Assembly (NCBI GenBank): GCA_902620405.1
Contig: CACNIC010000008.1
Span: forward strand, 1-35,638
Direction of reading: 5' to 3'
Length of the DNA stretch: 35,638 nucleotides
DNA from: an uncultured SAR202 cluster bacterium
Lineage (GTDB): Bacteria; Chloroflexota; Dehalococcoidia; Lucifugimonadales; Lucifugimonadaceae
The first letter of the stretch is position 1, and each line of letters opens with the position of its first letter. The notes under the pieces are model-generated. The model saw nothing but the letters and a program-made list of their open reading frames with translations. It had not been told where the DNA came from and searched no databases. Position numbers and translations under genes: made by a program. This document shows positions 31,942 through 35,638 of this stretch, in pieces.

Positions 31942-33153
31942 GTGAAAATATCTAGAAGAAAAAGTAATTTAGTAAAAGTTGGCAATGTTAACATTGGTAA
32001 CGATTCTCCTATTGTAGTTCAATCTATGACTGATACAGACACTTCTGATGTTGTAAAAACAGTAAATCAGATAAAGGAGTTATTCGATGCAGGAAGTGAA
32101 ATTGTAAGAATTACTGTAAACAATGATCAAGCTGCCAAAAGCGTTGAAATAATAAAAAATAATCTGATCGATGACGGGTATGATGTCCCAATAGTAGGTG
32201 ATTTTCATTTCATAGGCCATAGATTATTAACTAATAATAAGTCTTGTGCTGAAAAATTGGATAAATACAGAATTAATCCTGGGAATGTTGGGCGAGGAAA
32301 TAAGAGAGATGAGAATTTTGAAATGTTTATTAAAGTAGCGGTTGAAAATAATAAGCCAGTAAGAATCGGGGTAAATGCAGGTAGTTTAGATTCAGAATTA
32401 TTAGATTTAAAAATGGAAATAAATTCTAAAAGGAAAATTCCTTTAAGTTCAGAATTTGTTGAAAACGAAGCTCTAGTTGAAAGTGCTCTAATTAGTGCTG
32501 AAAAAGCAATTGATTTAGGTTTACCAGAAGATAAAATAATTATTTCTTGTAAGGTTTCAAGGGTAAATCAAATGATATCTGTATATAAAGAATTATCTGA
32601 AAAATGTAATTTTCCTCTTCACTTAGGGCTAACTGAAGCAGGAATGGGGATGAAGGGTATCTCTTACACATCTGTAGCTTTGGGTAACCTACTTTATCAA
32701 GGAATAGGAGATACTATAAGATGCAGTTTGACACCAGAAGTAAATGGTGACAGAACAAATGAAGTAAAATTATGCCAAGAAATTCTTCAATCAATAGGAG
32801 CTAGGGATTTTAATCCAACTGTTACATCCTGTCCGGGGTGTGGTAGAACAACTTCAACTTTTTTTAGAGAATTAAGTGAAGAAATACAAGATTTTCTTAA
32901 TTCCAAAAAGAAATTATGGAATAAAAATTACCCCGGATCTGCTAGCTTAAAAGTTGCTGTAATGGGATGCGTAGTCAATGGCCCAGGGGAATCAAAAAGC
33001 GCAGATATTGGAATATCATTGCCAGGTTCTGGTGAATCTCCAAAAGCCCCAGTATTTGTTGACGGAAACAAAGTAGATGTGCTTGAAGGAAATGAAATTG
33101 CTAAACAATTTATTAATATGATAGAGGATTATGTTATCAATAAATGGGGATAA
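31942..33153 (+). CDS. ispG: 4-hydroxy-3-methylbut-2-en-1-yl diphosphate synthase
   Basis: A 403-residue iron-sulfur enzyme of the MEP pathway, starting at GTG. PIVVQSMTDTDTSD near the N-terminus and RINPGNVG are family marks. The three [4Fe-4S] cysteines are in TSCPGCGR and MGCVVNGPGE. It converts methylerythritol cyclodiphosphate to HMBPP and works with dxr in the same block. Its own promoter abuts the start codon. Confidence 0.96.
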   Translation: MKISRRKSNLVKVGNVNIGNDSPIVVQSMTDTDTSDVVKTVNQIKELFDAGSEIVRITVNNDQAAKSVEIIKNNLIDDGYDVPIVGDFHFIGHRLLTNNKSCAEKLDKYRINPGNVGRGNKRDENFEMFIKVAVENNKPVRIGVNAGSLDSELLDLKMEINSKRKIPLSSEFVENEALVESALISAEKAIDLGLPEDKIIISCKVSRVNQMISVYKELSEKCNFPLHLGLTEAGMGMKGISYTSVALGNLLYQGIGDTIRCSLTPEVNGDRTNEVKLCQEILQSIGARDFNPTVTSCPGCGRTTSTFFRELSEEIQDFLNSKKKLWNKNYPGSASLKVAVMGCVVNGPGESKSADIGISLPGSGESPKAPVFVDGNKVDVLEGNEIAKQFINMIEDYVINKWG

Positions 33154-33157
33154 AAGT

Positions 33158-33171
33158 AGGGAGCAAATATT
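33158..33171 (+). promoter_or_regulatory. Ribosome-binding site and AUU start codon of proS
   Basis: AGGGAG (33158-33163), five bases, then ATT (33169-33171). No ATG, GTG or TTG exists in frame between the TAG at 33157 and the ATG at 33226, while homology to ProS begins before that ATG. Confidence 0.7.
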
Positions 33172-34869
33172 AAATTAAATAAATATTTTTGGAATACCAA
33201 AAGAGATATTTCTGAAAACACAGAAATGTTAAGTCATAAATTACTTTTGAAAGCCGGGTATATATCTCAGTTAGGTGCAGGAATTTTCAGCTTCACTCCT
33301 ATGGGATGGAGAGTAATAAATAATATTAAAAAAATTATTGATGAAGAAATGAGCAAAATTGATTGCTATGAAGCAAATTTACCAGTTATACAACCAGCTA
33401 AAATATGGGAGGAAAGTGGAAGAATCGATTCTTTCATACCACCATTGGCTAATTTTAAAGATAGAAGAGATAAAAAAATGATAATTGCTCCTACTCATGA
33501 GGAAGCTGTAATTGATCTTGCAAAGGATTATTTAAGAAGCTTCAGAGATTTGCCGTTCTCTATCTATCATATTCAAACAAAATTTAGAGATGAAACAAGG
33601 CCAAGAGGGGGCTTGTTGAGGGTAAGAGAGTTTGAAATGAAGGATGCATATAGTTTTCATCAAGATGAGAATTCTCTCGATGAAACTTTTGAAAAATTTT
33701 CAGAAGCTTACTTTAATATTTTCGGTAGGTGCGGATTAGATGTAGTAAAGGTTGCCGCTGACAGTGGAGCTATTGGTGGGAAGATATCTTCTGAATTTGT
33801 TTCTATATCAGGAGGTGGCGAAGATACAATATTAATGTGTGATCCATGTTCGTATTCTGCAAACGAAGAAAAAGCCGAATTTGTAAGATTTAAAAAAGAA
33901 CCACTCAATTCTCAAAATATTGAAGAAGTAGAAACCATTGGAATAAAGTCAATTGATGAATTAAGTGAATATTTTAATTTAAGTAAAGAAAATTTTCTAA
34001 AAACAATGGTTTACATTAATCATGAAAAACCAATATTTGTTACTTTATCTGGCGACCTAGAAGTTAATGAAACAAAGTTAAGAAATTATTTAGGTGGAGA
34101 GCCAAGACTTGCATCAGATGAGGAATTAGAAAAATTAAATTTATCAATTGGCTATTTGTCTCCAGTAAATAGTAGAGTTGAAACATTGCTTGATATTTCA
34201 GTTGATGTAAATTCTGACTACATTGCTGGGGCTAATATAGACAATTACCACCTAAAAGGAGTTGTTCCTAATAAAGATTTTACTAATATTATTGATATAG
34301 TTGACATCGCCACCGCAAGGGAAAATGATTTAACACCATATTGTAATGAAAATTGTATTAATAAAGGTTTAAAAAAGTTTAAAGGTATAGAAGTTGGTCA
34401 TATATTTAAATTGGGCTCAGCATACAGTTCAACAATGGGATTAAATTTTTTAGACTCTAATGGAAAATTAGTTAATGTAGAAATGGGGTGTTATGGAATA
34501 GGTGTTGGCCGATTGCTAGCGGCAATAGTAGAGGCAAATTCAAATGAAGATGAGTTGATTTTTAATAAAGAAGTTGCCCCTTTTGAAGTATATTTAGCAT
34601 CCTTGAATACAGATAAAGATGAGGTAATTGATAATTCTGAAAAAATTTATAAAGATTTATGTGGTGCTAATTTTAGTGTTTTATATGACAACAGAAATGA
34701 GTCCCCAGGTGTGAAATTTAATGATTTTGATCTTTCAGGAATACCTTTTAGGGTTGTTGTTAGTTCAAGATCACTAAGTAATAATCAAGTTGAAGTCAAA
34801 AATAAATATACCGGAAATTCAGAACTAATTGATAAGAATGAACTACTTAATCATTTAAAGAATATTTAA
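33169..34869 (+). CDS. proS: Prolyl-tRNA synthetase, bacterial type
   Basis: A 566-residue class II synthetase. Motif 2 is in FRDETRPRGGLLRVREFEMK, motif 3 in YGIGVGRLLAAIVE, and the editing (INS) domain lies between them, followed by the C-terminal anticodon-binding domain. The first in-frame ATG (33226) would remove 19 residues. The codons before it encode NKYFWNTKRDISENTE, which lines up without gaps with the N-terminus of E. coli ProS so that ATT at 33169 falls on Met1. AGGGAG at ideal spacing supports it. It begins 15 bases after ispG. Confidence 0.95.
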   Translation: MKLNKYFWNTKRDISENTEMLSHKLLLKAGYISQLGAGIFSFTPMGWRVINNIKKIIDEEMSKIDCYEANLPVIQPAKIWEESGRIDSFIPPLANFKDRRDKKMIIAPTHEEAVIDLAKDYLRSFRDLPFSIYHIQTKFRDETRPRGGLLRVREFEMKDAYSFHQDENSLDETFEKFSEAYFNIFGRCGLDVVKVAADSGAIGGKISSEFVSISGGGEDTILMCDPCSYSANEEKAEFVRFKKEPLNSQNIEEVETIGIKSIDELSEYFNLSKENFLKTMVYINHEKPIFVTLSGDLEVNETKLRNYLGGEPRLASDEELEKLNLSIGYLSPVNSRVETLLDISVDVNSDYIAGANIDNYHLKGVVPNKDFTNIIDIVDIATARENDLTPYCNENCINKGLKKFKGIEVGHIFKLGSAYSSTMGLNFLDSNGKLVNVEMGCYGIGVGRLLAAIVEANSNEDELIFNKEVAPFEVYLASLNTDKDEVIDNSEKIYKDLCGANFSVLYDNRNESPGVKFNDFDLSGIPFRVVVSSRSLSNNQVEVKNKYTGNSELIDKNELLNHLKNI

Positions 34870-34995: not shown

Positions 34996-35638
34996 TTGAA
35001 AAACGAATTAATGTTGGCTTTGACAGCTTTAGCTCACGACAGAAGCCTTCCGCAATCTGTTGTATTGACAGCAATACAAGCTGCTTTGGAACATGCGTAT
35101 AAAAAGGATGCAAATGGTCAAGAGGTAAGAGTTGATTTAGATCCTGATACTGGAAATACAGTTGTTAGAACAATAAAGGTAGTTGTAGAGACTGTTGAAG
35201 AAAGCGATCTAGAAATATCATTATCACAAGCCCAAAATCATTTTCCAGATATTAAAATTGGAGAAGAAGTTACAACTGGTTATATTGAACCTGATCCAGG
35301 AAGAATTACTGCCCAAACTGCAAGGCAACTTGTTTTACAAAAACTGAGGGAAGCTGAAAGGCAACTTGTTGCAAATGAGTATTCAAATAAAATTGGTGAA
35401 ATAATGCCCGGAACTATCTCAAGAATCGAAGGAAGAGATGTTATTGTTTCACTTGGTAGAGGTGAAGCTGTTATGCCACCACAAGAGCAAGTAAATTCAG
35501 AAAAATATCGTGTTGGGCAACAATTAAAATTTATTATTTTAAAACTTGACCAAGAAAGAAGAGGGCACGAAATTGTTGTCTCTAGATCAAATGTTGATTT
35601 ATTAAAAGAGTTATTTGTACTAGAAGTTCCGGAAATAA
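34996..35638 (+). CDS. nusA: Transcription termination/antitermination factor NusA, partial
   Basis: The first 214 residues are visible before the right edge. It starts at TTG with AGGTAGG just upstream. The N-terminal RNA-polymerase-binding domain includes ALTALAHDRSLPQSVVLTAI and a helix ending EHAYKK, then ITAQTARQLVLQKLREAER. The S1 domain follows from about residue 134 (IMPGTISRIEGRDVIVSLGR), leading to GHEIVVSRSNVDLLKELF before the first KH domain. NusA modulates pausing, intrinsic termination and antitermination. No rimP gene precedes it, unlike the common rimP-nusA order. TATAAT at 34974-34979 may be a local promoter. Confidence 0.94.
   Translation, partial: MKNELMLALTALAHDRSLPQSVVLTAIQAALEHAYKKDANGQEVRVDLDPDTGNTVVRTIKVVVETVEESDLEISLSQAQNHFPDIKIGEEVTTGYIEPDPGRITAQTARQLVLQKLREAERQLVANEYSNKIGEIMPGTISRIEGRDVIVSLGRGEAVMPPQEQVNSEKYRVGQQLKFIILKLDQERRGHEIVVSRSNVDLLKELFVLEVPEI

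Follow-up and report, generated by a model that had tools for sequence, protein, structure and literature searches.

In Escherichia coli, initiation factor IF3 destabilizes complexes on codons besides AUG, GUG and UUG, and the AUU start of infC serves self-control by IF3. Two proven cases of AUU starts have been named, both of them from E. coli (PMC1780047). In Staphylococcus aureus reporters, AUU and AUA starts give ~10% of the expression obtained with AUG, a figure that for one gene rises to as much as 30% when the medium is rich (PMC13009471). The GUC start of Streptomyces sigR is repressed by IF3 (PMC5472188), and the databases carry a truncated protein for Borrelia pncA (PMC13398362).

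We have analyzed a window of 35,638 nucleotides (contig C8 of a 966,721-base metagenome assembly, 70% complete) from an uncultured marine SAR202 bacterium (Chloroflexota). Its proS gene, which encodes a bacterial-type prolyl-tRNA synthetase, an essential enzyme of tRNA charging, appears to begin with AUU. In the literature searched, AUU was not found described as the start codon of any prolyl-tRNA synthetase gene, and we know of no AUU start for any aminoacyl-tRNA synthetase. The features of the locus are:

31942 to 33153, plus strand: ORF with a GTG start, which we take to be ispG; stop codon TAA at 33151-33153; same frame as proS, ending 15 nt before the proS start
33157 to 33159, plus strand: in-frame stop codon TAG, closing the proS frame on its 5' side
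33158 to 33163, plus strand: Shine-Dalgarno sequence AGGGAG (core GGAG), followed by CAAAT (5 nt) and then ATT
33169 to 33171, plus strand: putative proS start codon ATT, on the Met1 position
33169 to 34869, plus strand: proS, bacterial-type prolyl-tRNA synthetase of 566 amino acids, from NCBIfam and Pfam matches
33226 to 33228, plus strand: ATG at codon 20 of proS, the earliest canonical start in frame; a standard gene caller would be expected to pick it
34996 to 35638, plus strand: downstream ORF with a TTG start, from the ORF list, running past the window end; presumably nusA, which it resembles

Read directly from the window, the proS frame continues 3' of the ispG stop as AAG TAG GGA GCA AAT ATT AAA TTA, and in-frame reading finds no ATG, GTG or TTG between the TAG at 33157-33159 and codon 20. 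The positions given in the original prediction for the ATT, the ATG and the AGGGAG 5 nt before the ATT were exact on rereading; AGGGAG is an imperfect Shine-Dalgarno sequence. Read from the ATT, the protein scores 642.7 bits against NF006625 (proline--tRNA ligase; cut-off 558) and the catalytic, editing and anticodon-binding domains are all found by Pfam (PF00587, PF04073 and PF03129); score and domains together place it among the bacterial prolyl-tRNA synthetases. The HMM alignments pair residue 2 with model position 2 in NF006625, and residue 3 with model position 3 in TIGR00409. The ATT thus falls on Met1 without a gap, exactly where the prediction had put it.

The genus comprises ten genomes, including that of the window (G000), and proS is present in all of them; every genome compared is a metagenome assembly. 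ATT stands at the Met1 codon in eight of the ten (G000, G001, G002, G003, G004, G005, G008 and G009), whose ProS identity to the window protein is 79% in G003 and G009, 61-64% in G001, G004, G005 and G008, and 60% in G002. These eight proS sequences form a single clade in the tree, with 100/100 support. The alignment of relatives, proposed with the original prediction as a check, therefore gives ATT in 8 of 8 clade members, and it gives ATG at the same codon in G006 and G007, which are deeper members of the genus (ProS identity 54%). All eight ATT genomes have a stop codon shortly upstream and lack a canonical start between that stop and codon 20, so that a full conserved ProS is encoded without any in-frame ATG, GTG or TTG at its start. 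A well-spaced Shine-Dalgarno sequence (GGAG, GGAGG or AAGGAG) lies 4-6 nt before the ATT in seven of the eight. It reads GGAGGAAA or GGAGGAAT in four clade members besides the window genome; only a weak motif, ATAGGTATAGAA, is seen in G002.

Among approximately 65 more distant proS loci, ATG, GTG or TTG is found at the Met1 codon or slightly upstream. The start lies about 8 codons upstream in one neighboring group (L083, L087, L089, L092, L117, L120 and L121), and two remote rows, L108 and L112, have no clear exact start position in the alignment. A further ATT occurs in G075, which is from another family of the SAR202 order and is the sole genome of that family in the comparison; the ATT follows AGGTGGAG, and the ispG stop is followed by no other in-frame start. 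The G075 ProS falls outside the eight-genome clade, so the tree requires two gains of ATT. Because all eight clade genomes have ATT at the same codon, its presence there is not due to chance. An isoleucine column of identical ATT codons is nevertheless weak evidence when taken alone, since ATT makes up 49-56% of isoleucine codons in the genus; the case for an AUU start rests on its position, the Shine-Dalgarno sequence, the lack of other starts and the methionine codon in the sister genomes.

The sole canonical start available is the ATG at 33226, and initiation there would yield a ProS shorter by 19 residues, with the upstream codons serving as a leader. We consider this very unlikely. Codons 2-19 are gap-free across the eight genomes and match the family N-terminus, and their pN/pS is about 0.2-0.27 within sub-clades (0.27 and 0.21 in the two sub-clades, with 0.07 and 0.12 for codons 21-60), values that rest on few changes since synonymous divergence in codons 2-19 is low. 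Across all eight genomes pN/pS is 0.52 for codons 2-19 versus 0.19 for codons 21-60, and the weaker N-terminal constraint is partly explained by the low level of synonymous change near the start itself. The comparison supports translation of codons 2-19 under purifying selection, in keeping with the earlier claim that a start at 33226 would cost a conserved N-terminus 19 of its residues. Furthermore, no Shine-Dalgarno sequence was seen ahead of the ATG at 33226, yet one precedes the ATT in seven of the eight genomes. Entry at another nearby non-canonical codon or in another frame, or readthrough from ispG, might be suggested by the arrangement in the window, where ispG is in frame with proS and ends two codons before the TAG. 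Readthrough would, however, have to pass two stops in G000, and ispG and proS are in different frames in several relatives; as for a nearby codon, it is the ATT that lies on Met1 at the proper Shine-Dalgarno spacing in 7 of 8 genomes, while the codons preceding it vary. This group of explanations is highly improbable. An ATG misread as ATT by sequencing or assembly error is conceivable for a window taken from a metagenome assembly of 70% completeness, but the ATT is identical in eight assemblies that stem from different studies and isolates and whose sequences flanking it are divergent, which leaves such an error a practically negligible explanation. Both sequencing error and loss of the N-terminus are made unlikely by the clade-wide ATT, its independent presence in G075, the ATG, GTG or TTG found elsewhere and the coding character of codons 2-19. 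We therefore hold with high confidence that proS of this SAR202 clade is translated from the AUU at 33169, as originally predicted and as borne out by the eight genomes and, independently, by G075; on this comparative evidence we accept as real an AUU start, conserved across the clade, in a gene for an aminoacyl-tRNA synthetase.

Other starts of this kind were sought in ~2 Mb from G000, G001, G003 and G006, which contain 1,538 conserved non-overlapping ORFs. In 43 of the 1,538, the conserved sequence reaches 10 codons or more beyond the most upstream canonical start; this automatic list includes frameshifts and antisense shadows, which were removed by eye, and an automatic test for a Shine-Dalgarno sequence plus ATH, with a background of 14%, was not taken as proof. 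The cases retained have ATH at the proper Shine-Dalgarno spacing and are conserved in orthologs, and the clear ones were traced through the genus. The infC gene of G000 has GGAGTTTCA followed by ATA (L152), with its first canonical start 106 codons in; ATA is found in most of the SAR202-order genomes read, ATT in G068 and TTG in G006 and G007 (L145-L174). ATT begins recF in seven of eight genus genomes, with ATG in G002 (L274-L280; L245:17469 in G001, L279 in G009 and L281 in G006). It is preceded by GAGGT-TAAT or GAGGT-TTAT in G001, G004, G005, G008 and G009, and by GGAG and 7 to 8 nt in G006 and G007. In G001 the open recF frame runs for 75 codons, Walker A motif included, before its first canonical codon, and the RecF protein scores 287.8 bits against TIGR00611 (cut-off 172). 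For holB (PF13177), the codon is ATC in G001, G004, G005 and G008, ATT in G006 and G007, and ATA or ATT in G002; a canonical start is absent in all seven of these genomes and a strong Shine-Dalgarno sequence precedes (L254:10914 in G006; L283-L288). A gene of the inositol-phosphatase family (PF00459) has ATC in eight genomes, preceded by a motif resembling a Shine-Dalgarno sequence (GGAG or AAAGG), and ATG in G006:

L126, 11017 to 11805, minus strand: inositol-phosphatase family gene; orthologs L298-L305; first canonical start in G000 79 codons in

In some genomes this ATC is preceded, at a distance of a few codons, by an ATG or TTG, and a stop intervenes in G000 and G005. The set probably includes pgpA (PF04608; L131:17488-17961), which has ATT behind a poorer motif in G000, G003 and G009 and ATG in the G001 group. 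These cases suggest that non-canonical starts account for roughly 0.5-1% of the sampled conserved genes, a rough and hand-curated figure made without a matched control. The AUU of proS thus appears to be one of a small number of AUU, AUC and AUA (AUH) starts conserved in the genus, together with those of infC, recF, holB and the inositol-phosphatase gene, and its original presentation as an isolated oddity was too narrow, given that recF, holB and the inositol-phosphatase gene of the genus also use AUU or AUC. As a separate observation, the apparent start codon of one conserved gene differs between two genomes, being ATA in one of them and ATT in the other (sampled stretches G006:C11+146010 and G001:C10, reverse strand, 124738).

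The 3' end of 16S rRNA, GGATCACCTCCTTT, is intact in the same genome (G000:C2; L137:1240-1253), and a Met tRNA with an initiator-type GGG/CCC anticodon stem is encoded on the minus strand at L144:9163-9237. Nothing unusual is thus seen in the anti-Shine-Dalgarno sequence or the initiator tRNA, and initiation at the AUH codons probably uses the usual initiator tRNA, with pairing to the Shine-Dalgarno sequence directing it there. A search near proS for an Rfam element such as a T-box found none. In seven of the eight AUU genomes, the ATG at 33226 lies within a 10-bp hairpin formed by proS codons 13-22 (window 33205-33230), and the AUG genomes lack this hairpin; it was rejected as a special feature, because synonymous-codon shuffles match its energy in 10-32% of cases and it is thus mostly due to the encoded amino acids. 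The IF3 fidelity residues Phe75 and Tyr137 of the genus were likewise set aside: Phe75 occurs widely in the family, and G006 and G007 have both residues too, so they have no clear tie to the AUU of proS.

Initiation on proS probably proceeds as follows. The Shine-Dalgarno sequence just 3' of the ispG stop would position the 30S subunit at the AUU, possibly assisted by ribosomes terminating on ispG 15 nt upstream, and the initiator tRNA would begin there despite the third-position mismatch. Shine-Dalgarno-directed initiation at this near-cognate codon would be weak, and IF3 would be expected to discriminate against AUU, a last step drawn from E. coli, Streptomyces and Staphylococcus. We infer that the AUU start would lower ProS synthesis relative to ispG. 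Control of proS by IF3, or by initiation fidelity, is plausible by analogy, and we see the chances as evenly balanced that the AUU makes ProS synthesis sensitive to IF3 activity. The AUA start of infC in G000 is as expected for a gene autoregulated by IF3. A regulon-like set of AUH genes, in which IF3 activity or initiation fidelity would jointly set the levels of tRNA-charging, replication and repair proteins, is a speculative and rather unlikely extension. The AUU of proS would have been gained once in the ancestor of the clade and then kept, with a separate gain in the other SAR202-order family. The rival to a regulatory role, which concerns why the codon was kept and not the use of AUU itself, is that the start is real but neutral, the product of relaxed start-codon selection in an AT-rich lineage. 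It draws on the AT-rich genomes and on the same habit in several unrelated genes, and we regard it as a credible though somewhat less probable account. Against it, the ATT persists across 60-80% identity though it is one step from ATG, and the ATC of the inositol-phosphatase gene is kept though ATC makes up only 7-10% of isoleucine codons. A start maintained for low expression better explains the persistence of ATT and ATC than does neutrality.

Membership in the conserved AUH-start set of the lineage is of more interest than proS alone. Standard gene callers probably overlook or truncate conserved SAR202 proteins with such starts, so that databases lack them or list them too short, and these proteins may be produced at low, controllable rates. 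In this lineage, nature supplies the genes with which to ask why rare starts persist and whether IF3 links them.

Several described systems resemble this one in part. Borrelia pncA (PMC13398362) and the predicted case of lepA (PMC1780047) are also an enzyme or factor that needs AUU for the full-length protein, although the genes and lineages differ from SAR202 proS. Streptomyces sigR (PMC5472188) likewise has a rare start within a gene pair, which in that case is co-transcribed; the codon and the gene are different, and the IF3 effect was shown for sigR while for proS it is inferred. In S. aureus and B. subtilis, infC, ccpN (AUA) and cvfC1 (AUU) are conserved non-canonical starts with Shine-Dalgarno sequences, and reporters put them at about 10-30% of AUG (PMC13009471); these are other genes, and their starts were shown by ribosome profiling, whereas the proS start comes from comparison only. 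As in E. coli infC and pcnB, a conserved gene has AUU as its first codon behind a Shine-Dalgarno sequence; the two E. coli genes have low expression, which for infC is IF3-dependent. Unlike infC and pcnB, the SAR202 gene, known from genome comparison, encodes an aminoacyl-tRNA synthetase, and its clade appears to use further AUU, AUC and AUA starts.
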